From Bryobacteraceae bacterium (GTDB lineage Bacteria > Acidobacteriota > Terriglobia > Bryobacterales > Bryobacteraceae), in the NCBI GenBank assembly GCA_025980665.1, contig JAICXC010000033.1:1-44638 (forward strand): a DNA stretch of 44,638 nt, in the 5' to 3' direction. The position numbers were made by a program, and so were the translations under genes. Below the pieces are notes generated by a model that saw only the letters and a program-made list of their open reading frames with translations, did no database searches and was not told the origin of the DNA. This document shows positions 32,635 to 44,638 of the stretch, in pieces (position 1 is the stretch's first letter; each line of letters starts with the position of its first letter).

Positions 32635-32886
32635 GTGCAGCATGGGTGCGCCCGAAGTGTGGGGATAGACTTCGGTCGTGAGCAAACTGAGCGAAAGCAA
32701 AAAAAAAAGACTCAGGCCGCAGTAGTAACGAAGCTGCTAAAGAACGTGGAGAAAAAGTTGGGGGGCGAGGACGTAAAGGCGACCTTGGGGGATTACATCC
32801 GGCTGGTGCAGCTCCAGCAGGAACTGGAAGACGAAGAGCCGCGGGACATAACGGTGACTTGGGTGGAACCGAAATCAGAGGCATAG
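32635..32886 (+). CDS. small protein upstream of the terminase (possible small terminase/packaging protein), start uncertain
   Basis: The likely core is AAVVTKLLKNVEKKLGG followed by DVKATLGDYIRLVQLQQELE and a DITVTWVEP ending, about 60 residues of mostly helical sequence. The ATG at 32635 gives 83 residues with an unusual basic, cysteine-containing leader. Alternatively a GTG at 32678 (VSKLSESKKK) in another frame joins the core through a run of ten A (32699-32708), which needs a -1 slip. Its position just before the large terminase suggests a packaging role, but no DNA-binding motif is evident. Confidence 0.6.
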   Translation: MQHGCARSVGIDFGREQTERKQKKKTQAAVVTKLLKNVEKKLGGEDVKATLGDYIRLVQLQQELEDEEPRDITVTWVEPKSEA

Positions 32887-34130
32887 AGTATCACCCTCTG
32901 CCGTCGCAGAAGAGGTTCCACGAATCGGGGGCGAGGTTCAAGGGATTTTCGGGGCCAATCGGATCTGGCAAGAGCCAAGCGCTGTGCCAGGAAGCGATCA
33001 AGCTGAGTTACTTGAATCCTGGGCGGACGGGATTGATCGGCGCTCCGACTTATCCGATGTTGCGGGATGCGACGGTGGCGGCGCTGTTGGAATTGCTGGT
33101 GAAGAATGGGATTCCGCACGAGGTGAATCGTGCGGAGAATTTTCTGGTGATGAAGGAGACGAGATCGAAGATCTTGTTTCGGGCGGTGGAGGAATTCGAG
33201 CGGTTGCGCGGGAGCAACCTGGCGTGGTTCGGACTGGACGAGCTGACGTACACGTCAGAAGAAGCCTGGCTGCGGCTGGAAGGGCGGTTGAGGGATCCAA
33301 AGGCAGCCAGGCTGTGCGGATTCGCGATGTGGACGCCGAAGGGATACGACTGGGTCTACGAGCGGTTCGTGGCAGAGCGGGTCGAGGGTTACGAAGTGGT
33401 GACGGCGCAGGCGTTTGAGAATCGGCATCTGCTGGATCGGGTGCCGGATTACTATGAGCGGCTCAAGAGCAGCTACGACACGCGGTTTTATCAACAGGAA
33501 GTGCTGGGCGAGTATTTGCATCTGCATACGGGCAGGGTGTACTACGCGTTCGAGCGGGCGAAGAATGTCGCCGAGATGAAAGTAGATCGGCAGCGGGCGC
33601 TGCTGTGGGCGCTGGATTTTAACGTGGATCCGATGTGCTCGGTGGTGGCGCAGGTGGCAGGCGATGGGGTGGTAGTGCTGGACGAGATCGTACTGAGCCG
33701 GTCGACGACGCAGCAGGCGTGCGAGGAATTTCAGAATCGTTTTCCGGAACATGGCGCGGGGTTGAAAGTTTACGCAGACGCGTCGGGGGCGCACATGCAG
33801 ACGACGGGCACATCGGATCTAGCGGTGCTGAAGAAGTTCTTTCGAAGCGGCGAGTACGGGGCGGTCGAGTTTAAAGTGCCGAGATCGAATCCAGCGGTGC
33901 GGGATCGGGTGATGGTTGTCAATGTCGCATTCCAGGGGATGAAGATCGATGCGCGCTGCAAAGAGTTGATCAAGGATCTGGAGCAGGTCGCTTACAAAGA
34001 GAACACTCAGGTGATCGACAAGGACAGGGATCCGCGCCGGACGCATTTATCGGATGCGCTGGGTTATTTGGTGTGGCAGGAGCTGCGGGTGGGGGAAAAG
34101 GTTGGAGAGCGAGGAACGAGGCTGATCTGA
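32859..34130 (+). CDS. phage terminase large subunit
   Basis: The DNA-packaging motor, 423 residues. The ATPase part has a Walker A GPIGSGKS (32-39) and a Walker B WFGLDELTYT (Asp127, Glu128). The RNase H-like nuclease has acidic residues Asp253 (LDFNVDP), Asp307 (YADAS) and Asp399 (HLSDALGY). The start is TTG at 32859, which overlaps the small gene by 28 bases; no ATG or GTG is available upstream of the ATPase in this frame, so the exact start is uncertain. The stop overlaps the portal start (tgatg). Confidence 0.93.
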   Translation: MGGTEIRGIEYHPLPSQKRFHESGARFKGFSGPIGSGKSQALCQEAIKLSYLNPGRTGLIGAPTYPMLRDATVAALLELLVKNGIPHEVNRAENFLVMKETRSKILFRAVEEFERLRGSNLAWFGLDELTYTSEEAWLRLEGRLRDPKAARLCGFAMWTPKGYDWVYERFVAERVEGYEVVTAQAFENRHLLDRVPDYYERLKSSYDTRFYQQEVLGEYLHLHTGRVYYAFERAKNVAEMKVDRQRALLWALDFNVDPMCSVVAQVAGDGVVVLDEIVLSRSTTQQACEEFQNRFPEHGAGLKVYADASGAHMQTTGTSDLAVLKKFFRSGEYGAVEFKVPRSNPAVRDRVMVVNVAFQGMKIDARCKELIKDLEQVAYKENTQVIDKDRDPRRTHLSDALGYLVWQELRVGEKVGERGTRLI

Positions 34131-35485
34131 TGGCGTTTGACATTGATCAAGAGCATCCGGAGTACGTGGTGAAGAAGGCCGCGTGGCGCAGATATCGCGA
34201 TTTGTACGCGGGCGGGGAACAGTTCCGGGTGAACGCAGCGGAGTATCTAATTCCCCGGCAGAGGGAGCCCGGCGAGGTATACGCGGAGCGGCTGTGCAGG
34301 ATCTTCTACGAGAACTACGTGGGATCGATCGTCGACTGGTACGCGGCTACGTTGTTCCGGCGGGAACCGGCGATCACGTTCGAAGGCAACGATGACGCCT
34401 CCAGGACTTTCTTCAGCGCGATGGTTGAGGACTGCGACCGGAGAGACACGTTGCTGGCGGACTTCTTCCGGCGGCAGTTCACGGAGAGCCTGGTGACGGG
34501 GACGAGCTATGTCCTGGTGGATTTTCCGCGAGCGAAGACGCGGCCGGGGACGCGTGGGGAAGAAGACGCAAGCGGGGCGTCACGGGCGTATCTGGTGGAA
34601 TATGGCGCGGACGACGTCATCAACTGGAGCTTAGACGATTACGGGAACTTCGAGTGGGTGGTGATCCGTACTAAGCAGATCAAGAAGGATCGGGTGGAGG
34701 ATCCGGAGTGGCGGACGGAGACCAAGTGGTCGTACTACGACAAGCGGACTTATCGAATTTATGGTGAAGACGGAGTCATCGACCAGGGAAACCACGCGCT
34801 GGCGAAGCTCGGGCAGACGCCGCTATTTGCGCTGCGGATTCCCGAAGGGCTGTGGATGCTCAACCGGGCGGGTTCGCTACAACTGGAGCACTTCAATAAA
34901 TCGAACGCACTGAGCTGGGCGCTGACGATGGGGCTTTTCGCGATGCCCGTGGTGTATTCGGATCGTGAGTGGAGCCAGATGGTGGGAGAGAGCTATTACA
35001 TCCAGCTGGGTCCGCAGGACAGGTTCGGCTGGACGGAGCCGGAAGGAAAGGTTTACCAGATCGCCGCGGACAACCTGGTGCGGCTGCGGGAAGAGATTTA
35101 CAGGGTGTGCTATCTCAGCCAGGCCGGGGTAGAGGAGAGCGGCTCGGCGCACAGCCAGAGCGCGCTCAGCAAGCAGATGGATTTCTCCATTACGCAGGAG
35201 GTACTGCGCGGATACGGGGACGCAATTAAGGAGCAGATCCGGCGGGTGCTGCGGGCGACGGCGGCGGCTCGCGAAGACGGGCTGGAGGTGAGCGTCACAG
35301 GCATGGACGAGTTTGATATCGCGGACTTCGGGACGGAGCTGGAAGACGCCAAGCGGCTACTGACGCTGGGCGTCGCGTCGCCGACGCTAACCAAAGAAGT
35401 CTTCAAGAAGCTGGCGCTGAAGTATTTGTGTGATTCGCGGCAGGACGTGAAGGACAGGATCGCGGAAGAGATCGAAAGGCTTTGA
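34130..35485 (+). CDS. phage portal protein
   Basis: Forms the ring at the capsid vertex through which DNA enters. It has 451 residues. The long helical N-terminal part includes RDLYAGGEQFRVNAAEYLIPR and an FYENYVGSIVDWYAATLF segment; the central QLEHFNKSNALSW and C-terminal SGSAHSQSALSKQMDF stretches are common in portals of siphophage type. The ATG at 34130 overlaps the terminase stop and is preferred to an in-frame start 57 bases upstream. A poly-A-rich gap of 36 bases follows. Confidence 0.88.
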   Translation: MAFDIDQEHPEYVVKKAAWRRYRDLYAGGEQFRVNAAEYLIPRQREPGEVYAERLCRIFYENYVGSIVDWYAATLFRREPAITFEGNDDASRTFFSAMVEDCDRRDTLLADFFRRQFTESLVTGTSYVLVDFPRAKTRPGTRGEEDASGASRAYLVEYGADDVINWSLDDYGNFEWVVIRTKQIKKDRVEDPEWRTETKWSYYDKRTYRIYGEDGVIDQGNHALAKLGQTPLFALRIPEGLWMLNRAGSLQLEHFNKSNALSWALTMGLFAMPVVYSDREWSQMVGESYYIQLGPQDRFGWTEPEGKVYQIAADNLVRLREEIYRVCYLSQAGVEESGSAHSQSALSKQMDFSITQEVLRGYGDAIKEQIRRVLRATAAAREDGLEVSVTGMDEFDIADFGTELEDAKRLLTLGVASPTLTKEVFKKLALKYLCDSRQDVKDRIAEEIERL

Positions 35486-35521
35486 AAAAAGGATCTTCGA
35501 AAAAAAGCGGGGGGCTTAAGT

Positions 35522-35941
35522 ATGGCTGAGGAGATGGATATTCGGGCGGTGCTGGACGAGCTGGCCGAAGAGCGCCGGCGGAGGGAAGGGTTGGAGAAGC
35601 GGGTGGAGGAAGCGGAACGGGGATCAGCGATTCGGGCGGAGTTGCAAAAACTGGGTGTGGCGAAGCTGGAGCTGGCATACAAGGCAGTGAAGGATGAAAT
35701 TCCGCATGAAGCCGGAGAGATGAAAGCATTCCTTGAGAAATTCGTGGGGGAGAATCCGGAGCTGCTACCGGCTAGGTTAGCTGGAGGGTCGGGAGCGACC
35801 GGCGGGACGCGCGGGGGGAGCGGTGCGGGGGCGGTGGCGGTGGACATCGACAAAATCCGGCCGGGGATGAGCGTCGAGGAGATGGACAGGGCAAGGCAGG
35901 AGATCGCGCGGGTAGCGTCGCAAACGCTACGCGGGTTCTAA
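35522..35941 (+). CDS. putative capsid scaffolding protein
   Basis: A 139-residue, highly charged, helical protein. Residues 1-65 (VLDELAEERRRREGLEKRVEEAE...) are a coiled coil, a Gly-rich linker lies at about 88-104, and a short helix (EEMDRARQEIARVASQTLRGF) closes the protein. This composition, and the position between portal and major capsid genes, is typical of scaffolding proteins whose C-terminal helix binds the coat. No protease domain is present in it or beside it. Confidence 0.7.
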   Translation: MAEEMDIRAVLDELAEERRRREGLEKRVEEAERGSAIRAELQKLGVAKLELAYKAVKDEIPHEAGEMKAFLEKFVGENPELLPARLAGGSGATGGTRGGSGAGAVAVDIDKIRPGMSVEEMDRARQEIARVASQTLRGF

Positions 35942-35957
35942 AAAGCAGGAGTCAGAA

Positions 35958-35969
35958 GAGGAGGAATTA
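35958..35969 (+). promoter_or_regulatory. strong ribosome binding site of the major capsid gene
   Basis: The sequence gaggaggaatta directly precedes the capsid ATG; GGAGG at 35960-35964 is among the best Shine-Dalgarno matches in the window. This fits the high expression needed for the capsid protein. Confidence 0.7.
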
Positions 35970-36881
35970 ATGGGTGCAATTACATCGAGTAATGTAGCGA
36001 ACGCGATTGTGAAGCTGGTGGCAGCGGATGCGCTACCCGCGCTGATGGGGAACCTTGTCATGGGCAACCTGGTCAATCGCGATTATGAGCCGGCGCTGGC
36101 GCAAGCGGGGGACACGATCAACGTGCCGATTCCGCCGGCGATGACGGCGCACAACCTAACGGAGGGCAGTACGGTATTGACCCAAAATCCGAGCCTGGAC
36201 AATGCGCAGATCGTGCTGAACACGCATGCAGAGTCAACCTTCCTGATTCCGGACGTAACCAAGATTCTGGCGGTCCCGGATCTGCTGAAGCTGTACATGC
36301 AACCCGCAGTGGTTGCGCTGGCGGAGAAGATCGAGTCGGACCTTCTGAGTTTGTACGGATCCTTGACCGCGAACACGGCCGTGGGGACCGGGGGGACGGC
36401 GATCACGGAGGCCGTAGTGGACTCGGCCGAGACAGCGCTGTTTGCGGCCAAGGTTCCGCCGAACGTCGCGAAGTTTCTGGTGGTGGATCCGGCGACGTAT
36501 TCGACGCTGCGGCAGATTCCCCGGTTCAGCGAATTCAACTCGGCAGGTGAAGCAGGCTTGCGGGCGTTAGTGGATGGGGCAGTAGGAAAGATGAAGGACT
36601 TTTACATCTTTCGCTCGCAGTTCGTGAATAAGACGGGAACGAGCCCGGTGACCACCCACAACGTGGCGTTCGCGCGGGACGCGATGGGTCTGGTAGTGCG
36701 CCGGCTCCCGAGACCGTTGCCGGGTACGGGGGCGATCGCGGAGTACGCCGAACTGGGCAGCTTCGGGATGCGGGTGACGATGAGTTACCAGCCAAACACG
36801 CTGGCGCAGCAGTTCACGGTAGACGTACTTTACGGAACAGGCGTGCTGAGAAACAGCTTCGGGGTGCAGGTGAATAGCTAG
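35970..36881 (+). CDS. phage major capsid protein (P22 coat/HK97-fold type)
   Basis: A 303-residue coat protein. The N-terminal AIVKLVAADALPALMGNLVMGNLVNRDYE and the GDTINVPIPPAM segment match capsid proteins of the P22 coat-like group, and the C-terminal YAELGSFGMRVTMSYQ is a typical end-of-fold stretch. There is no N-terminal pro-domain, consistent with the absence of a prohead protease and with a separate scaffold gene upstream. It is followed by a strong hairpin. Confidence 0.9.
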   Translation: MGAITSSNVANAIVKLVAADALPALMGNLVMGNLVNRDYEPALAQAGDTINVPIPPAMTAHNLTEGSTVLTQNPSLDNAQIVLNTHAESTFLIPDVTKILAVPDLLKLYMQPAVVALAEKIESDLLSLYGSLTANTAVGTGGTAITEAVVDSAETALFAAKVPPNVAKFLVVDPATYSTLRQIPRFSEFNSAGEAGLRALVDGAVGKMKDFYIFRSQFVNKTGTSPVTTHNVAFARDAMGLVVRRLPRPLPGTGAIAEYAELGSFGMRVTMSYQPNTLAQQFTVDVLYGTGVLRNSFGVQVNS

Positions 36882-36887
36882 GGAACG

Positions 36888-36906
36888 GGCCGGCCTGGAG
36901 CCGGCC
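36888..36906 (+). terminator. hairpin after the major capsid gene
   Basis: Perfect 7-base GC-only stem ggccggc (36888-36894) and gccggcc (36900-36906) with a 5-base loop ctgga, 6 bases past the capsid stop. There is no T-run, so it may act as a partial terminator or a 3' mRNA stabiliser that keeps the capsid message more abundant than the downstream genes. Confidence 0.5.
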
Positions 36907-36926
36907 TCACCTGCTGAAAGCGACCT

Positions 36927-37184
36927 ATGGATTTGCTCGCATATTACGAAAAGATTCGCAAGATCGAGGCTGTAATCGATGCCGTGTTCACGGTGGTGAC
37001 CAGCCGCGCAACGCCGGATGGAGGCCGGGCCGGGGTGAAAACAGAACTACCACGAGCGGTAGCGGCGCGCTTAATCGCCGACGGGAAGGCAGACCTGGCG
37101 AATCCGGAGGAGGCGGCGCAATTCCGGGCCGAAGCGGAGGCGAGATGGAAAGAGGCGCAATTCCATGTTGCTGACCGACGGTAG
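36927..37184 (+). CDS. small head-tail connection protein, hypothetical
   Basis: An 85-residue protein, mostly helical (LLAYYEKIRKIEAVIDA...), with an ARLIADGKADLANPEEAAQFRA segment. Its place directly after the capsid gene is where head-completion or adaptor proteins are encoded in siphophages, but no family is recognised. It overlaps the next gene by 20 bases. Confidence 0.65.
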   Translation: MDLLAYYEKIRKIEAVIDAVFTVVTSRATPDGGRAGVKTELPRAVAARLIADGKADLANPEEAAQFRAEAEARWKEAQFHVADRR

Positions 37185-37959
37185 TCCGAATAACGACGAA
37201 AACTTGCGCGTGTATGAATCGGCGATTCTTGGGCTGGCGAACTTGGAGTCGATTGACCTGGGAGTGAAGCTGGACCTGGCGACCGAGGAAATCACGGAGG
37301 ACATCCTCGACTTTCTCCTGGATCACGCCGGCACGAACTTGCAAGTATTTTCGCGACTCCAGGCCGGGACTCCCGCGGCCCAGCGCCGGAAGACCGGCGT
37401 ATCGGATGTGGTGGTCACGCGGCAGCTGAAGCGCTGGCATGCGGTACACACGCTGGAAATCGTGTACCGGGATGCGTTCAACAATCAACTGAACGACCGG
37501 TATCAGCCAAAGTTTCTGGAGTACCGGCAGCTGGCGCGGAACGCGCGGGAACACACATTTCATTTCGGTGTGGGGCTGGCGCTGATTCCGATTCCGCAGG
37601 CGCAAACTCCGGTGTTCAGTGCCGTGGCCGGTCTGATCCCCGAGACTACGTACTATGCGCGGGCGTCGTGGGTTGTGGCGTCCGGTCAGGAGGGGGAGCC
37701 CAGCGAAATGACGGCTTATGGTGCGCCGGCAGGCGGCCTTCCGGTTGTTCAGATGGTGAATCCTCCGACTGTCGCGACGGGGTTCAACGTCTATCTTGGG
37801 CTGACTCCGGATGCGCTGGCATTGCAAAATTCAATGCCGATTCCGGTGGGGCAGAGTTTCACGCTACCGGAGAGCGGGCTGACGGCGGGCGCAGCACCGG
37901 GCAACGGGCAATCCCCTGACATCTATATCAGTGGCGGCTGGATGCTGCGGCGAGGTTGA
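37165..37959 (+). CDS. phage structural protein with C-terminal FN3-like domain
   Basis: A 264-residue protein. The N-terminal half is an unassigned alpha/beta region with LKRWHAVHTLEIVYRDAFNNQLNDRY. From about residue 150 it changes to beta-strand sequence that resembles a fibronectin type III-like domain (YYARASWVVASGQEGEPSE and GFNVYLGLTPD). It lies between capsid and tail-completion genes, so it is probably a head-tail connector or a decoration protein. Exact role unknown. Confidence 0.65.
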   Translation: MLLTDGSPNNDENLRVYESAILGLANLESIDLGVKLDLATEEITEDILDFLLDHAGTNLQVFSRLQAGTPAAQRRKTGVSDVVVTRQLKRWHAVHTLEIVYRDAFNNQLNDRYQPKFLEYRQLARNAREHTFHFGVGLALIPIPQAQTPVFSAVAGLIPETTYYARASWVVASGQEGEPSEMTAYGAPAGGLPVVQMVNPPTVATGFNVYLGLTPDALALQNSMPIPVGQSFTLPESGLTAGAAPGNGQSPDIYISGGWMLRRG

Positions 37960-37963
37960 AGCG

Positions 37964-38461
37964 ATGGCCAAGACAGGAAGCGTCGCGACGCGCAAGATGG
38001 TGGAGTTTCTGAGGGCGCCAGATACGGGACTCAGTCCGGCGGTAGCGGGGATCGCACTAGAGACCGCGGTGGAGCTGGCTCCCATCCCGCCGGCCCACGT
38101 GGTGAACCAGAACGTTTCTTTCGAGCTGAGTGAGCGAGCGCAGGTGGTGAAATATCCGGCGGTCTATGTGTACACGGACCGCGTTCGGAATTTGCTTACG
38201 GAGAAGTTCCGAACTTTTTCGGGGAAGGTACGGACGGTCGCGGAGGTGCGGGTTTCGCAGGATCGGATTGAAGGCGTGGAGGAGCGACTACGGCTGTATG
38301 TGGAAGCAGTTACTCAGGTACTGGATGCGAATCGGGGGAGCTGGGGAGAAGGTGCATTTTTCACCGGGGGATATGACGTGAGTATCGATCCGGTGCGGCA
38401 TGGCGGGAAGAACTTCCTGCAAATCGCGAAGGTGGAATTTGAGGTTGACGTGTCACTATGA
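37964..38461 (+). CDS. putative tail terminator/completion protein
   Basis: A 165-residue protein with no recognised family. It contains VKYPAVYVYTDRVRNLLTEKFRTFSGKVR and a central RLRLYVEAVTQVLDANRGSWG stretch, and a C-terminal KVEFEVDVSL strand. Size and position just before the tail tube gene fit tail terminator proteins. The ATG at 37964, 4 bases after the previous stop, is preferred to a longer in-frame start. The stop overlaps the tail tube start (ATGA). Confidence 0.65.
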   Translation: MAKTGSVATRKMVEFLRAPDTGLSPAVAGIALETAVELAPIPPAHVVNQNVSFELSERAQVVKYPAVYVYTDRVRNLLTEKFRTFSGKVRTVAEVRVSQDRIEGVEERLRLYVEAVTQVLDANRGSWGEGAFFTGGYDVSIDPVRHGGKNFLQIAKVEFEVDVSL

Positions 38462-39630
38462 GCTGCTACATATCGTCGAATAACAACCGGGTGTTCGTGG
38501 CGCTAGAGACGGATTACGGTCAGGCCGCAGGGATCACGGGCGCGAATCGGATTCCGCTGGTGAAGCTTACCGCGCGCCAGCTTTCCGAACAGACGGGGCG
38601 CCGGGATAAGACTGGCAGCCGCACGTTTGCCGGGCTACCGAACCGAATTCGGAGGCGTACAAGCTTCCAGTTGAATACGTTCATGACGGAATGGACGGAT
38701 CAGACATTGCTGCCTACTCATGGGCCGCTGTTCCAGGCGACGATGGGCGCCTCGCCGGTTATTTTCGCCGGTGGAGCCGTGGCGGCGGTCACCGGGCAGA
38801 CGCAGATCCAATTCGCCGCGGCGCACGGGCTGACGCCGGGTCAGGCAATCACATCCAGCGGCGAGATACGGTTCGTGACAGCAATACAGGACACGACGAC
38901 AGTGTTCATCAACGCGGCGTTCACTGCGGATCCGGTGGCAGGATCGACTATCGGGGCGACGGCGACATTCCGACTGGCCACCGACTTGGGGAGCACGACG
39001 ATCTACGACTACTGGGATCCGAGCACGGTGGTGCAGCGGATCCTGAACGGTGCGGCCATGGACGGGATGAAAGTCACGGTGAACGGAGACTTTCATGAGT
39101 TCGAGTTCTCGGGACCCTCGCAGGACCTATTGGACAGCGCAAGTTTCGTGAGCGGGGAGGCCGGATTGGTGAGTTATCCAGCGGAACCGTCTTCGGCAGA
39201 CTTCGACTATACGATTGTGCCGGGGCACCTGGGACAAGTGTGGATGGGTGCGCCCGAAAGCCAGTTTTTCACGCTGACGGCGGCACAACTGACGATGACG
39301 AACGGCATCGCGCAGAGGCTGCAGGAGTTCGGAAGCGATTTTGCGAGGTGCATCACGGCGGGTGAACGAACCGTGCGATTGAATTTCAAGATCTTCGAGC
39401 ACGACGACGCGCAGACGAAGGGTTTGTATCAGGCGGCTCGGCAGAGGTCGCCAATCGGGGTGATGTTGCAGTTGGGAGAGCAGCCAGGGCAACTGTTCGG
39501 GGCGTATATGCCGGCGATGGTTCCGGAAGTGCCGGAGTTCGACGACGGGGAGACACGGCTCCAGTGGGCGTTTCAAAACGATAGGGCACAGGGGACAGTG
39601 GATGACGAGTTGTATATCGCTTTCGGGTAG
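38458..39630 (+). CDS. phage tail tube (major tail) protein with inserted domain
   Basis: A 390-residue beta-rich protein in the major tail protein slot. The N-terminal part (RVFVALETDYGQAAG ... RRTSFQLNTFMTEW) and C-terminal part (ITAGERTVRLNFKIFEHDD ... FDDGETRLQWAFQNDRAQG) look like tube-forming strands. Between them, at about residues 100-170, lies a Gly/Ala/Thr-rich stretch (AVTGQTQIQFAAAHGLTPGQ...) that resembles a small immunoglobulin-like insertion. The end overlaps the chaperone gene by 29 bases. Confidence 0.75.
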   Translation: MSCYISSNNNRVFVALETDYGQAAGITGANRIPLVKLTARQLSEQTGRRDKTGSRTFAGLPNRIRRRTSFQLNTFMTEWTDQTLLPTHGPLFQATMGASPVIFAGGAVAAVTGQTQIQFAAAHGLTPGQAITSSGEIRFVTAIQDTTTVFINAAFTADPVAGSTIGATATFRLATDLGSTTIYDYWDPSTVVQRILNGAAMDGMKVTVNGDFHEFEFSGPSQDLLDSASFVSGEAGLVSYPAEPSSADFDYTIVPGHLGQVWMGAPESQFFTLTAAQLTMTNGIAQRLQEFGSDFARCITAGERTVRLNFKIFEHDDAQTKGLYQAARQRSPIGVMLQLGEQPGQLFGAYMPAMVPEVPEFDDGETRLQWAFQNDRAQGTVDDELYIAFG

Positions 39631-39997
39631 TGCGGCGCATGAAAGCTCGGCGTGGTTCGACGCGGAGACTTATCCAGGTGTACGGTTCCGAGTGGCACGG
39701 ATTTCCGTGGCGAGGAGAATCGAGCTGGCGCGAAAGATCCGGGAGATCGGCCGGAAGGTCGAGTTTCTGGAAGCTGGGAAGGATCCGCGAGAGAAGCTCG
39801 AGGCGGCGGTGCTGACGGCGGAGATCGACCGCGTGTATCTCGAGTGGGGCTTGGAAGAGATCCAGGCGCTGACCATTGACGGAGACGCGGCGACGCCGGC
39901 TGCGCTGATCGAGAAGGGTCCACTTGATCTGGCTAAGGAGATGCTGGGCCGTATCAAGCGCGAGTGCGGACTAAGCGAAGAGCAACGAAAAAACTGA
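39602..39997 (+). CDS. tail assembly chaperone (G-like, zero-frame product)
   Basis: A 131-residue, mostly helical protein (ARKIREIGRKVEFLEAG ... LDLAKEMLGRIKRECG) between the tail tube and tape-measure-slot genes, the conserved place of the lambda G/T chaperone pair. Its last codons are CGA AAA AAC TGA, so the slippery heptamer A AAA AAC sits exactly at the stop. A -1 slip would yield a 237-residue fusion with the following frame. No sequence family is claimed; the call rests on position, size, helical character and the slip site. Confidence 0.8.
   Translation: MTSCISLSGSAAHESSAWFDAETYPGVRFRVARISVARRIELARKIREIGRKVEFLEAGKDPREKLEAAVLTAEIDRVYLEWGLEEIQALTIDGDAATPAALIEKGPLDLAKEMLGRIKRECGLSEEQRKN
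39988..39994 (+). other. -1 ribosomal frameshift site (A AAA AAC)
   Basis: The heptamer aaaaaac is in the correct zero frame (A AAA AAC) and is followed at once by TGA (39995-39997). Tandem tRNAs on AAA AAC can re-pair one base back on AAA AAA and continue in the -1 frame with CTG ATC GTC. X XXY YYZ sites of this kind drive G/GT frameshifting in tailed phages. A downstream stimulatory structure was not confidently identified. Confidence 0.75.
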
Positions 39998-40314
39998 TCG
40001 TCGCATTTCATTTCCTGCGCGGTGACGGGTGCCGATGGGAGTGCGACGCGTGCCGGAAGCAGGGTTTGGAAGCGCGGAGACGGTGCGGGTTTCTGCCGGA
40101 GGAACGGCGGGGCGCGAGGCGAATCGTGTGGGCTCGGGGGACGGCATCGACAGAGGAATGTCCCAAATCGCTTATGACCGCGGAGAGTATTGAACTGCTG
40201 GAGAGATTCTTCGCGGCGCGCACGTGGGGATGGAGGGATCCGACGGCGCGTGAGGCGGATGCATTCCTGGCACTGGAACAAGAACTGCGGGCGGAGGGAC
40301 TGAATGGCAAGTGA
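39994..40314 (+). CDS. tail assembly chaperone -1 frame extension (T part of a GT-like fusion)
   Basis: The -1 frame continues from the slip site for 106 residues (LIVAFHFLRGDGCRWECDACRKQG ...) to a stop at 40314. Its own ATG at 39964 would give a short overlapping ORF with no ribosome site, so synthesis by frameshifting is more likely. The part contains two close cysteine pairs (CRWECDAC, then RRCGF) and an ESIELLERFFAARTWGWRDPT helix. The end overlaps the next gene by 11 bases. Confidence 0.7.
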   Translation: MIVAFHFLRGDGCRWECDACRKQGLEARRRCGFLPEERRGARRIVWARGTASTEECPKSLMTAESIELLERFFAARTWGWRDPTAREADAFLALEQELRAEGLNGK

Positions 40315-40900
40315 TCCGGGAACCGTGGGCGATGTGTTGGCAGGAGCGACGGTGGCGAACACTTCGGGTGGCGGGAGTCTGAGTGACGAGATCGCGAAGC
40401 TGGCAGAGCAGCTGCAGCAGTTGCAGACGGCGAGTCAGGCGGCCACAGAATCGATTCAGGCGAGTTCGCGGACTACGGCCAGTGCAGGTTCGCCGGGTAG
40501 CTCTTCGCCGGCTCCATCGATAGGAAATACGCTGTTGGATATTTTCGGAGCGGGACTGGGGCTGAGCCCGCTTATCTCGGGGATCGCGAGCCCGTTCTCG
40601 GGAAGCGGAGAAAGCGCCGCGCCGGCTCCATTGACGAAGTTCGTTATGCCTCCATCGCTACACATCGACGGAGGAGTGGGTGAGACGGGAGGGCCGGCGT
40701 TCGCAGTGGGCAATCCGCAGGGCGGAATTCCGAGGGCTACCTCCAGTGGAGGGCAGAATGTTGCACCGGCGCAGATCACGGTGCAGGTTCAGGCGATGGA
40801 TAGCCAGTCATTCCTGGACCATAGCGCAGACATAGCAATGGCTGTCCGACAGGCGATGCTCGAGTCGGACGTGCTTAACGACGTGGTTCGGGAGGTGTAG
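40304..40900 (+). CDS. short tape-measure-slot protein
   Basis: A 198-residue protein in the tape measure position. It has an N-terminal heptad helix (LSDEIAKLAEQLQQLQTASQ), a Ser/Gly/Pro-rich middle with a hydrophobic segment (NTLLDIFGAGLGLSPLISGIA), and a C-terminal SFLDHSADIAMAVRQAMLESDVLNDVV resembling the ends of tape measure and related tail proteins. Tape measure proteins normally exceed 500 residues. This one is either a minimal version for a very short tail, a shortened remnant, or a different tail protein. Confidence 0.65.
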   Translation: MASDPGTVGDVLAGATVANTSGGGSLSDEIAKLAEQLQQLQTASQAATESIQASSRTTASAGSPGSSSPAPSIGNTLLDIFGAGLGLSPLISGIASPFSGSGESAAPAPLTKFVMPPSLHIDGGVGETGGPAFAVGNPQGGIPRATSSGGQNVAPAQITVQVQAMDSQSFLDHSADIAMAVRQAMLESDVLNDVVREV

Positions 40901-41257
40901 GTGGCGAATTTTCCAGCGCTGAAGACCGGAGTAGTTGCGCAATATCCATCGGATCGAACAAGACGATTTTCGACGCAGGTATTCCGATTCCTGGATGGGG
41001 GCGAGCAGAGATTTGCAGGATTCGGCGCGCCGCTGAAACGGTGGCTGATCCGGCTGGAGCTGTTGGATGAGACAGAACTGGGGAGCATCGAGGACTTTTT
41101 TGTGGAACAGGGCGGGCGCGCGGGGACATTTACGTTTACAGATCCGTGGGACGGAACGGTCCATGCGAACTGTAGTTTCGAAAGCGACACCATGACGGCG
41201 GACTATCGCGGGCGAGGCGACGGCGCGGCTTCGGTGATCGTAAAGGAAAACCACTGA
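40901..41257 (+). CDS. DUF2460-like minor tail protein
   Basis: A 118-residue protein with the DUF2460 layout: FPALKTGVVAQYPSDRTRRFSTQV at the start, a KRWLIRLELLDETELGSIEDFF helix and a GGRAGTFTFTDPWDG turn. In gene transfer agents and related phages this family is a distal tail component. The GTG start abuts the previous stop, with ggagg just upstream inside the preceding gene. The next gene begins with a paralogous domain. Confidence 0.8.
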   Translation: MANFPALKTGVVAQYPSDRTRRFSTQVFRFLDGGEQRFAGFGAPLKRWLIRLELLDETELGSIEDFFVEQGGRAGTFTFTDPWDGTVHANCSFESDTMTADYRGRGDGAASVIVKENH

Positions 41258-41258
41258 G

Positions 41259-42047
41259 ATGCTGGTCTTTCCACAATTGGCCACGGGAGCATCGGCGCTG
41301 TATCCGGTTACACGCCGGAACTTGACGCGCACTGTAGTGAACGCGCTGGCCGACGGAAGTACGGTGGTCGTCGGCGATCCGGATGCGGGGATGCGGGCAT
41401 GGGAGCTTCGGGCGTCCGGTCTAACCCTGGTCGAATGGACGGCGATCGACACTCTGTTCCAGAGTGCGTCGGGGCGATTCGGTGCGTTCACGTTTCTGGA
41501 TCCTTTCGGCAACCTGCTGCTTCGCAGCGAAGAATTCGGCGATCCGGTATGGGACAACAGTCCGCTGATTCAGTTGACGCCGGGAATTGGTGATCCGTTG
41601 GGTACGATGCAGGCGACGCAGGTTGTCAACGCGGGATCGGCGGCAGGCGTGGTTGCGCAGACGCTGGCGGTCCCTGGGAATCTCCGGTACACGCTGAGCG
41701 TGTGGGCGAAGACGACGGGCGTATCGAACGTAACTCTATCCGCTACCACGACTGGCGGAAGCGCGACGCGAATTATCGCGCTGACGAGCGAGTGGAGCCG
41801 GGTTTTCCTCAACGTCGAACTGGGATTAAACACGGAAAGCGTGGTGTTCGGTGTGGTCCTAAATGTGGGTGCCATCGTGGACTTGTTTGGGATGCAAGCC
41901 GAGGCGCAACCTGGCGCATCGGATTACAAGAAAACCGGCGGGAGCGGGGGGCTGTATGCGCAAGCTCGGTTTGCGGAAGATGAATTGACGGTGACGGCCA
42001 AGGGCACGGACGTGTTCGATGCGGTGATCAAGATTGTAGCGAGCTGA
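41259..42047 (+). CDS. DUF2460-like tail protein with inserted beta-sandwich (carbohydrate-binding-like) domain
   Basis: A 262-residue protein. Residues 1-88 (FPQLATGASALYPVTRRNLTRTVV ... RAWELRASGLTLVEWTAIDTLF ... GRFGAFTFLDPFGNL) parallel the preceding 118-residue protein. After this, at about 89-230, comes a beta-rich region (LLRSEEFGDPVWDNS ... YTLSVWAKTTG ... VDLFGMQAE) that resembles the carbohydrate-binding-like domains common in phage tail proteins. The C-terminus (ELTVTAKGTDVFDAVIKIV) probably resumes the DUF2460-like part. It may bind the host surface. Confidence 0.75.
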   Translation: MLVFPQLATGASALYPVTRRNLTRTVVNALADGSTVVVGDPDAGMRAWELRASGLTLVEWTAIDTLFQSASGRFGAFTFLDPFGNLLLRSEEFGDPVWDNSPLIQLTPGIGDPLGTMQATQVVNAGSAAGVVAQTLAVPGNLRYTLSVWAKTTGVSNVTLSATTTGGSATRIIALTSEWSRVFLNVELGLNTESVVFGVVLNVGAIVDLFGMQAEAQPGASDYKKTGGSGGLYAQARFAEDELTVTAKGTDVFDAVIKIVAS

Positions 42048-42055
42048 AACTTAAC

Positions 42056-44638
42056 ATGCCGACCATAGACGATCTAAAAGAGGAGCAGGCACCACCGACC
42101 CCGCTGTTTTTGTTCGAGTGTACTCTGCGGGATGGCTCAATAGAGCGGTGGGGAACGCACGCGGTAACGTTCAATGGAAACAGTTATGCCGCGCGCCTGC
42201 TGAAGCACAATCTTTTCGAGCTGGCCGCTGCTCCAGAAGATACCAAGATCAGTGTGACGCTGGCGAACGCGGACTCGCATTTTTCGGAGATCGAGCGGGA
42301 GATCGGATTTCGCGGAGCGCAAGTCGCGGTCCGATTTCTGTTTTACGACTTGATTGCTCAGGTGGCAGCGTCGGAAGCGCGGACGGTGTTTCGGGGAATT
42401 GCGAACACCGCGGAAGAAACCACGGAAGCGGCACTGCGCGTCAGCTTCACGAACAGACTGAATCTGCAACGAATCGTGCTTCCGGAAGTGCGGATCCAGC
42501 GGCGCTGCCCGTGGGTATTTCCGACCTCTTCGGATCAACGGCTGGAAGCATTAGACGGGGGAGCGAAGGGAAAATATTCGGCGCTGTATCGCTGCGGATA
42601 CTCGCCCGGCCAGACCGGCGGTGTGGGAATGCTGGAAAGTGGACAACCATTCACAGCCTGCGACTACACGCGGACGGCTTGCACGGCGCGAGGAATGTTC
42701 GACATCGGACGATTCGGCGGGTTGGAGTTCGTGCCGGCGCAGATTGAGGTACGGAGCTTTGGACAATCGAGCTCGCATCTCTCTCCGATCATCGCGAGCG
42801 AGGCGCGGTACAACGACTTCGTGCCGCTGGTATTCGGGACGGCGTGGTATCAGCCGCCAGTAGTGTTCGCCAGGAACGACGGTAACCTGACGCACCTAGA
42901 AGTGCTGCTGGGAATGGGGGAGATCGCTGAGATTCTGAAGGTGGTCGTCAACGACGTAGAAGTTCCCGAAGGCGTCGGCGGCGTGTACATGACCGGGACG
43001 GGGTGGTACAACCTGATCGCGAGCGGCGCGCGGTCAGGTTCATTCAATCCGGATTTTCCGGGCGGCGATCCGTACGGCAGTATGGCGATGGTCAGCGTGG
43101 TGGTGCCGAACCAGATCAGCACCGGACAGTCGTTGCCGAGAGTGCAGGTGCTGCTCGCAGGACTTAAACTGGAGCGGTTCGACGAGTCCGGTGCATCCCT
43201 GGGCGAGGCATTTACCAATAATCCCGCTTGGGTTTTACTGGACGTGCTACGCCGGAGCGGGTGGCTCACGTCGGATGTCGATCTGCCGAGTTTCGCGACG
43301 ACGGCCGCGTATTGCGAGGAAGCGATCGAGACCACCGACCTGTACGGCAATGCGGTCCTAGTGCCGCGCTTCGAGTGCAACCTGGTGGTGAATCGCCGGT
43401 GGAGCGCCGCAGAAGTGGCACGGGGCATCCGGAACGGATCGTCGCTGCTGCTGACGTATGGAAGCGGAGGGCTGCTGACGCTGCGCGTCGAAAATACGAT
43501 GGCGCTACAGCAGCCCGCGAAGCCGGATGGAAGCAACAGCACTGAGGTGTTGAACGGCGGCTGGCCGGCGTACGAGTTCAGCGATGGATCGGCGGCTTTC
43601 TCTGGTATTTTACGCAAATCAAGCGGCGAACCAGCTATCCGGTTGTATGCGGCCGGCGGAGCTGACACGCCAAATCGTCTGACGGTGGAATTTCAAGACG
43701 AGTTCAACGAATATCAGCAAGATAGTTTGTCGCTGGTGGACGTGGACGACGCGCTTGTGACGCAACGGGAAGTCACCGCTACGTTTCCGGGCCTAGGGTT
43801 GCCGAACTTCGACCAGGCGACGCGGATGCTGGATTTGCAATTGGCGAAGTCGACGGTGGGGAGCACGCTGGTCGAGTTCGCGACTACCGTGCGCGGTGCA
43901 GGGCTGGCTCCTGGAGATCTGATCACGGTTACGTATCTCAAGGAAGGATTAGAAAGACAGCCGTTCCGTATCCTTCGCCTGGCTCCGGGAGTGAACTATC
44001 AGACTGTACTGATCACGGCGCAATGGCACGACGACGCTTGGTACACGTCGGGTGGAGCAACTGCGGCAGGAGGCCGCAGAACGGGTGGTGGAGAAACCCT
44101 GCTGCCACGTCCTCTGGTGGGAAGCGTACTGGATGGGAACGGAATCGAACAGTTCGGCATTGCGGAGACCGTAATTCCGCTTTCGGACGGCGGATTCCAG
44201 GTGAAGCTGAGCGCGGCGTTTACAGCGCCTAGCACGCCGTCGCCGTCGCTGTCGAACATTCCACTCGTGAGCCTGAACCCGACTATGGACGCCACAGGCG
44301 GAACGCTCGCCGGTGGACAGACGCTGTACTATGCCATAAGCGCGACGGATTCGAGTGGCGCTGAAAGCGGATTATCGTTCGCGGTGCGGGCAAAGATTCC
44401 CACGGGAACGAACACGAATGCGGTGAACCTCACCGGGCTGAGTTTTTCCCCGGGCAACACCGCGACATTTTCGGTTTACCGAGGATCGAACCCGATTGAG
44501 CTGCTGCGGATCGCACATGGACACACGGTGGCGAGTTCGTTCGTCGATGCGGGAGCTAGCGCGGAGCTGGTAGGGCCGCCGGATAGCAACTACAATCACG
44601 CGAACTTCTACTGGAGACTGGAATTACAGCCCGAAGTA
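42056..44638 (+). CDS. tail hub/tip protein with four-cysteine cluster and FN3-like C-terminus (3' end outside window)
   Basis: An open frame of 861 codons from the ATG at 42056 runs to the window end with no stop. Residues 1-230 resemble distal tail-tip proteins of the gpL/DUF2163 kind (LFLFECTLRDGSIERWGTHAVTFNG ... RTVFRGIANTAEETTEAALRVSF), with Cys151, Cys180, Cys202 and Cys209 placed to hold a [4Fe-4S] cluster. The middle part resembles baseplate hub proteins (GDLITVTYLKEGLERQPFRILRLAPG). From about residue 740 an FN3-like domain (TLYYAISATDSSGAESGLS) begins. The protein thus seems to join tip and hub functions. Confidence 0.82.
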   Translation, partial: MPTIDDLKEEQAPPTPLFLFECTLRDGSIERWGTHAVTFNGNSYAARLLKHNLFELAAAPEDTKISVTLANADSHFSEIEREIGFRGAQVAVRFLFYDLIAQVAASEARTVFRGIANTAEETTEAALRVSFTNRLNLQRIVLPEVRIQRRCPWVFPTSSDQRLEALDGGAKGKYSALYRCGYSPGQTGGVGMLESGQPFTACDYTRTACTARGMFDIGRFGGLEFVPAQIEVRSFGQSSSHLSPIIASEARYNDFVPLVFGTAWYQPPVVFARNDGNLTHLEVLLGMGEIAEILKVVVNDVEVPEGVGGVYMTGTGWYNLIASGARSGSFNPDFPGGDPYGSMAMVSVVVPNQISTGQSLPRVQVLLAGLKLERFDESGASLGEAFTNNPAWVLLDVLRRSGWLTSDVDLPSFATTAAYCEEAIETTDLYGNAVLVPRFECNLVVNRRWSAAEVARGIRNGSSLLLTYGSGGLLTLRVENTMALQQPAKPDGSNSTEVLNGGWPAYEFSDGSAAFSGILRKSSGEPAIRLYAAGGADTPNRLTVEFQDEFNEYQQDSLSLVDVDDALVTQREVTATFPGLGLPNFDQATRMLDLQLAKSTVGSTLVEFATTVRGAGLAPGDLITVTYLKEGLERQPFRILRLAPGVNYQTVLITAQWHDDAWYTSGGATAAGGRRTGGGETLLPRPLVGSVLDGNGIEQFGIAETVIPLSDGGFQVKLSAAFTAPSTPSPSLSNIPLVSLNPTMDATGGTLAGGQTLYYAISATDSSGAESGLSFAVRAKIPTGTNTNAVNLTGLSFSPGNTATFSVYRGSNPIELLRIAHGHTVASSFVDAGASAELVGPPDSNYNHANFYWRLELQPEV

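Follow-up and report, generated by a model that had tools for sequence, protein, structure and literature searches.

Does translation of a short tail gene always end at its own stop codon, or do some ribosomes slip back by one base and read on into a second frame? The question is raised by a locus of a Bryobacteraceae bacterium (phylum Acidobacteriota) on contig JAICXC010000033.1 of assembly GCA_025980665.1, of which positions 1 to 44,638 of the forward strand were analysed (hereafter the window, meaning this whole stretch of 44,638 nucleotides). Within a phage-derived cassette, a small open reading frame (ORF) termed G, or ORF1, lies between a tail tube-like gene and the tape measure slot and is followed by an overlapping -1 frame, T. 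A first-pass annotation made from the sequence alone had proposed that G and T form a frameshifted tail assembly chaperone pair like G/GT of phage lambda, a system reviewed in PMC5009743 (statements on papers cited by PMC number refer to the accessible parts of those texts). Conservation of the junction, a covarying hairpin and weak fold matches of G support this proposal, and we estimate at roughly 0.93 the probability that the locus uses a programmed -1 ribosomal frameshift to yield lambda-type G and GT tail assembly chaperones. The features of the junction are as follows.

39602..39997, + strand: G ORF (ORF1), tail assembly chaperone-like, 131 codons from ATG 39602, ending at the slip site
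39988..39994, + strand: slippery heptamer A_AAA_AAC, in phase with ORF1
39995..39997, + strand: zero-frame stop TGA adjoining the heptamer
39994..40314, + strand: T, the -1 frame extension, 106 sense codons from CTG 39994, stop TGA at 40312-40314
40000..40047, + strand: hairpin placed as stimulator, pairing 40000-40004 with 40043-40047 and 40006-40010 with 40036-40040

The start codon region of G overlaps the tail tube gene, and its 3′ end reads CGA (39986), AAA (39989), AAC (39992) and TGA (39995), so that the canonical heptamer and its phase are confirmed from the coordinates. The -1 frame is open for the 106 codons first reported and stops just inside the next ORF (ATG 40304), which it overlaps by 11 nt; the predicted GT fusion has 237 amino acid residues. 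By itself the 7-mer AAAAAAC is no rarity in this stretch (observed 2, expected 3.6), and the case for frameshifting therefore rests on comparison between genomes.

Conservation of the slippery heptamer and the adjoining stop

A scan of viral contigs with the extension yielded 393 relatives, of which 80 were kept; this sample is partly biased, one search peptide spanning the junction. A second scan with ORF1, whose search peptides lie outside the junction, gave 21 loci. In 76 of 77 distinct junctions, mostly from viral contigs, AAAAAAC stands directly before the stop, and in the remaining one (L085) it stands one codon earlier. Because of the peptide that covers the junction, we built a junction-blind profile from the T-domain alignment minus its first nine residues and searched it against whole genomes. 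It matched 163 of 200 Bryobacteraceae genomes and 67 of 76 genera, with a single match in all but three genomes and a marginal one in G512 (E 9.6e-4). Junctions were analysed in 117 of the 163 matched family genomes (the window and 116 others, 60 genera), a set that combined the top 30 loci by score, the genomes of highest completeness, the matches with the lowest scores and others spread in between. Five of the 46 other matched genomes were read separately among the further loci described below, and the remaining 41 lie outside the junction counts. These counts share ancestry and do not represent independent events.

A canonical heptamer is present in 116 of the 117 genomes, as AAAAAAC in 115 and as AAAAAAT in one (G464). 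The lysine codon of the slip site is AAA in 116/116 genomes, and lysine elsewhere in ORF1 is encoded by 88 AAA and 271 AAG codons (25% AAA). Twelve further stretches were also taken, eight of which hold T, five from the family and three from other families; the heptamer is kept in all eight (five AAAAAAC, three AAAAAAT). The alignment of homologues that the first-pass annotation had named as a check thus finds the heptamer, its phase, the open -1 frame and the gene position kept across 60 genera with one exception in 117, and the same holds for the loci from three other families. The last base of the heptamer is C or T, never G, in the family and in the further loci; AAAAAAG is the most slippery form of the heptamer in Escherichia coli.

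The zero-frame stop follows the heptamer directly in 99 of 116 genomes, after one codon in 16 and after 45 codons in one, and is TGA in 62, TAA in 31 and TAG in 23. The contact between slip site and stop, called notable at first reading, differs from the stop distances given in PMC10885494 (accessible part), which average 26 nt for the training set of phages and 36 nt for the phages of Xu. In the three loci from other families the stop lies 22, 39 and 65 codons past the heptamer, which indicates that the adjoining stop is common but not essential.

A run of adenines could also provoke slippage by RNA polymerase, in which case the second frame would be reached through the transcript and not through the ribosome. 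The run of 6 A in the window, and the 10 consecutive A in G532, lend themselves to this explanation. Polymerase slippage usually requires longer runs, and most of the loci shown have about 6 A; moreover, all 116 canonical heptamers end in C or T, and slippage by the polymerase has no need of the covarying hairpin found at ribosomal spacing (see below). We consider this explanation very improbable.

Coding evidence for the T reading frame

The T frame was compared in 110 of the 116 genomes, the other six having no in-frame, stop-free match to G. In 110/110 relatives it runs for 103 to 130 codons (median 111) to its first stop. Over the same stretch the zero frame holds a mean of 4.1 stops, counting the adjoining stop, and the third frame holds at least one stop in 89 of the 110 relatives. 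In all 13 chosen genome pairs, of which G507/G473 is saturated (synonymous divergence, dS, about 2), omega (the ratio of nonsynonymous to synonymous rates) is 0.09-0.41 for T; for G it is 0.00-0.23 in 12 of the 13 pairs and 1.06 in G396/G471. The T frame is under purifying selection. The 13 pairs replaced an all-pairs NG86 estimate (dS 0.1-1.5; median omega 0.46 for G and 0.48 for T, maxima 1.33 and 1.17), which was judged saturated.

Phage genes in bacterial chromosomes often decay, and the window is one contig of a metagenome-assembled genome (MAG), so that the two frames could be taken for one gene of a decaying prophage, split by a frameshift mutation. The split is identical, at the heptamer, in 116 of the 117 genomes, and this conservation of the junction refutes prophage decay. 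The purifying selection on T in 13/13 pairs and on G in 12/13 also stands against it, as does the collinearity of the cassette in all 86 loci that retain at least 12 of its 15 genes. Of the alternatives we weighed, decay is the least credible.

T could instead be a separate gene, translated by re-initiation from a start of its own with no frameshift. The window offers such a start, a GTG at 39964 in the T frame, 31 nt before the zero-frame stop, which would give a 116-codon ORF; this GTG, however, falls within conserved Glu-Cys codons of the zero frame. In 42 of 116 genomes there is no ATG, GTG or TTG between the preceding T-frame stop and the Cys domain, and 92 of 116 have no ATG there, which makes independent initiation of T unlikely as a general route. 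In 28 of 116 genomes the preceding T-frame stop is itself no more than 30 nt ahead of the heptamer. A start proper to T would also leave the conservation of the heptamer and of the hairpin unexplained, and we judge it about as improbable as slippage by the polymerase.

A covarying hairpin downstream of the heptamer

In 115 of 116 genomes the third codon of T, which is GTC in the window, has C as its last base while encoding V, L, I, A or T, and this pattern led us to suspect base pairing. The outer pair, between base 1 of the third T codon and base 3 of the codon after the first Cys, is G-C in 64 of the 116 genomes, C-G in 16, A-U in 8, G-U in 6 and unpaired in 22. From 107 ungapped sequences (9 of the 116 have a different loop length and were excluded), RNAalifold, with no structure supplied, returned two 5-bp helices, which in the window begin 5 nt past the heptamer. 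Pair counts covered 11 base pairs, including the weak outermost pair, 21-70. Paired cells amount to 93.1% versus 88.9% after shuffling and fall to 37-52% when the pairing is slid, and the covariation score is 0.211 versus 0.144; neither observed value is reached in 500 shuffles. When changes were reconstructed by parsimony on a tree built from three cassette proteins, three pairs had 7, 4 and 2 double changes and two others had none, with 0-3 at seven control pairs; the 21-70 pair shows 9 double changes, yet 36 breaks. The best fold of the window sequence has the outer helix and an inner helix shifted by one base from the consensus register. Taken together, these data support a covarying hairpin at stimulatory spacing, which would act as the stimulator of the frameshift.

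An upstream Shine-Dalgarno-like stimulator was considered and is not supported, such a motif being found in the 20 nt ahead of the heptamer in 54 of 116 genomes versus 9-66 of 116 in 13 control windows farther upstream.

The G and T proteins

The AlphaFold2 model of G is mainly helical, with a mean predicted local distance difference test (pLDDT) score of 85.6. In the Foldseek viral structure library it comes closest to an uncharacterised protein of Caudovirales (E 4e-9, 34% identity), and weaker matches include several named tail assembly or tape-measure chaperone (probability up to 0.99, E 0.01 and worse). Among 67 relatives, seven show a weak match to the unnamed phrog_7433 (E 0.047 at best). 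Homology of G to known tail assembly chaperones is weakly supported by these modelled folds.

The T model has a mean pLDDT of 90.1. Four cysteines, arranged C-x2-C-x10-C-x24-C in the window, are invariant in alignments of both 42 and 67 relatives, and suggest that T may bind zinc. The Cys-rich start of T had been described as atypical of known T domains, and this description holds: window T matches no Pfam or PHROG family, with scattered chance-level matches among the 67 relatives. T has no sequence match in PDB, and PDB sequence and fold searches gave nothing convincing. Searches of isolated phages gave no relatives of G and two chance-like matches to T (E 0.2 and 0.5). Neither half is named by a sequence family.

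The pair resembles lambda gpG/gpGT in its position between tail tube and tape measure, in the combination of a small ORF with a -1 extension, in a slip near the end of G, and in a mainly helical G whose fold weakly matches proteins named as tail assembly chaperones. It differs from lambda-type chaperones in having no convincing Pfam or PHROG match, in the four conserved cysteines of T, in the covarying bipartite hairpin and in belonging to a mostly single-copy, family-wide chromosomal cassette.

Several observations weigh against a frameshifted chaperone pair. One genome (G412, locus L195; a MAG with 7% contamination) has no canonical heptamer and carries GAGAGAAAC before TGA, possibly a real loss or an assembly error. 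Two of the five hairpin measures are reached by shuffled alignments, the count of double-change pairs in 147 of 500 shuffles and that of further pair types in 75 of 500; the outermost 21-70 pair is not formed in 53 of 105 distinct sequences, and the window's own hairpin region shows no folding advantage over shuffled versions of it (z -0.26). Since codons in the hairpin arms are conserved, part of the arm conservation is owed to the encoded residues. The chaperone names among the fold matches of G are interspersed with baseplate hub assembly protein and transglycosylase names, G has no convincing fold match in PDB, and searches of Pfam and PHROG gave no family for window G. Finally, the T model has no convincing fold relative in the viral structure library.

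A model for the synthesis of G and GT

Under the frameshift that we favour, the majority of ribosomes would read AAA AAC, terminate at the adjoining stop and release G (131 amino acid residues), and a minority would shift back by one base on A_AAA_AAC and continue into T, producing the 237-residue GT fusion. Ribosomes may be held at the slip site by the hairpin 5 nt past the heptamer, and perhaps also by slow termination at the adjoining stop. If the roles are those of the lambda proteins, G would form a coat on the short tape measure protein, and the T domain with its four cysteines would bring in tail tube subunits. The sequence signals, their conservation and covariation, the selection on the T frame and the gene position are observed here; that slippage takes place, how often it does so, what the hairpin contributes and which partners the products bind are inferred.

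The gene pair would add to the lambda G/GT kind a member in an unusual chromosomal setting. Recoding sites are normally traceable only in fast-changing phages; here one can be followed across 60 genera with a host tree. The locus accordingly offers testable constraints on a natural -1 signal, namely AAAAAAC or AAAAAAT versus AAAAAAG, the frequent adjoining stop and the co-evolution of a hairpin with the protein that it encodes.

Organization of the cassette

The G/T pair is embedded in a head-tail gene cluster, whose features in the window are listed below.

32859..44638, + strand: phage-derived cassette, running past the window end (hub cut)
38458..39630, + strand: tail tube-like gene, match to phrog_290 (minor tail protein), E 9e-7
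40304..40900, + strand: very short tape measure-like gene, 198 amino acid residues, weak C-terminal match to tape measure protein (TMP) phrog_3779, E 0.003

The two matches that flank the pair agree with its first placement between tail tube and tape measure slot. Genes are arranged in the order TerL, portal, scaffold slot, P22-like coat, connector slots, tail tube, G/T, TMP, DUF2460, tail protein and Phage-tail_3 hub, and the cassette spans about 13.5 kb from terminase to hub. Across 115 loci the median length of the TMP slot is 208 codons, and two small outliers have 4 and 33. If a tail measures about 1.5 Å per TMP residue, the tail built here would be roughly 30 nm long. Eleven other genomes carry the same cassette in order, with a hub of about 1300 amino acid residues and a G+C content within 0.05 of that of the flanks. 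Of ten flank proteins from four of these genomes, seven match bacterial families, three match nothing and none matches a phage family; integrases were not searched for genome-wide.

Distribution and inheritance

In a phylum sample of 396 genomes, three of them from the family, the T profile matched four, which are the window genome, one of the same genus and two marginal matches near E 1e-3; L005, L006, L210 and L211 are weak matches in the phylum outside the family. Among 66 named records with T, 35 are assigned to Bryobacteraceae or Bryobacterales, 6 to Solibacteraceae or Ca. Sulfopaludibacter, and 25 to Acidobacteria, Acidobacteriia, Terriglobia or (once) Acidimicrobiia only. In a class sample of 250 genomes the coat protein matched 50: 46 from this family, three from other families (73-75% identity) and one distant match (24%). 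The sporadic occurrence of the cassette outside the family suggests rare horizontal transfer or an older origin.

We compared the cassette with the host tree as given by rpoB in 26 of 30 genomes searched; three were dropped because their rpoB was short and G424 because it lacked one of the cassette genes. The cassette and rpoB trees have 11 of 23 splits in common, versus 0.2 with shuffled labels. Mantel tests against rpoB gave r 0.48-0.59 (p 0.001) for portal, coat, tail tube, hub and T, and r 0.34 (p 0.004) for DUF2460. The upstream neighbour is common to 20 of 62 same-genus pairs versus 49 of 2423 other pairs.

Other results speak against vertical inheritance. In the window's own genus T was matched in 8 of 12 genomes, once marginally (E 9.6e-4), and 4 of 12 have no match. 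The three cassettes in other families (L423 in G599, L422 in G593 and L421 in G744) are those with coats 73-75% identical to the window's. Seven strongly supported conflicts separate the cassette tree from the rpoB tree; TerL gives a Mantel r of 0.26 (p 0.013) and a rho of 0.08, and G is not significant (p 0.18). Overall, the inheritance of the cassette reads as mostly vertical, with losses and some movement.

Some genomes carry extra coat copies, 58-77% identical to that of the window (L426 and L427 in G493, L428 in G435, L429 in G426), which also weigh against vertical inheritance. No T gene was found within roughly 7 kb of them; in L426 and L429 the tail tube comes late, so T could lie beyond. 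These copies possibly belong to related prophages beside the main cassette.

Relationship to gene transfer agents and proviruses

The cassette looks less like an ordinary prophage than like a family-wide, mostly single-copy locus of the gene transfer agent (GTA) kind. Genomic features of the GTA definition of PMC9662315 (accessible part) are found in it wholly or in part, as known here from genes alone. Caudoviricete-derived proteins are represented, by protein similarity only, by TerL, portal, P22-like coat, weak TMP, DUF2460 and Phage-tail_3 matches, and endogenization by the bacterial flank families and flank-like G+C. With the gene transfer agent RcGTA the cassette has in common a complete head-tail cluster, about 13.5 kb here, mostly one copy per genome, host-gene flanks of similar G+C and an inheritance that reads as mostly vertical. 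RcGTA carries DUF2460 and Phage-tail_3 genes, and so does the cassette; unlike in RcGTA, the coat matches Pfam P22_CoatProtein and the host belongs to Acidobacteriota. Tail chaperones 1 and 2 of RcGTA are g10 and g10.5 (PMC11409702, accessible part), in contrast with the frameshifted chaperone predicted here, and the likeness to GTAs is one of features and not of compared homologues.

A mostly title-based, open-access literature search found no GTA paper for this host group, and the accessible texts of PMC5900883, PMC12142844 and PMC11924767 describe no GTA in Bryobacteraceae hosts; PMC12142844 mentions that cryptic phages may, among other fates, become gene transfer agents. In PMC11924767, group (i) consists of newly reported Bryobacterales-specific proviruses. 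These resemble the cassette in host order, in belonging to Caudoviricetes and in a gene order common to many genomes, and the cassette is possibly an element of this group. That paper describes group (i) as proviruses, in contrast with the GTA-like interpretation given here, and the terms gene transfer, tape measure and domesticat were not found in its accessible text. One scan did not return its named uncultivated virus genomes (UViGs).

The kept signal for a chaperone ratio argues for continued tail building in Bryobacteraceae and makes the cassette a strong GTA candidate in an abundant group of soil bacteria. The operon may encode a functional GTA or another exapted head-tail particle of the Bryobacteraceae, an idea to which, judging from sequence, we assign slightly less than even odds. 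It would represent a new GTA lineage in Acidobacteriota, outside the described clades, whose short tail would be built with a frameshift chaperone bearing a new zinc-binding-like T domain preserved by host selection.

Other genes at the ends of the cassette

Upstream of TerL, a small ORF at 32635-32886 of the window is matched in 38 of 117 loci and occupies a possible small terminase slot. At the other end, a protein of 900-990 amino acid residues directly follows the hub in G458 (L212/L213), G403 (L218/L219), G436 (L222/L223) and G557 (L227/L228). For each of these proteins, relatives occur in four of the other genomes compared, and the same is true of a 1010-residue ORF on the minus strand farther downstream in G492. 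The protein of 900-990 residues is possibly the product of a tail fibre or receptor-binding gene.

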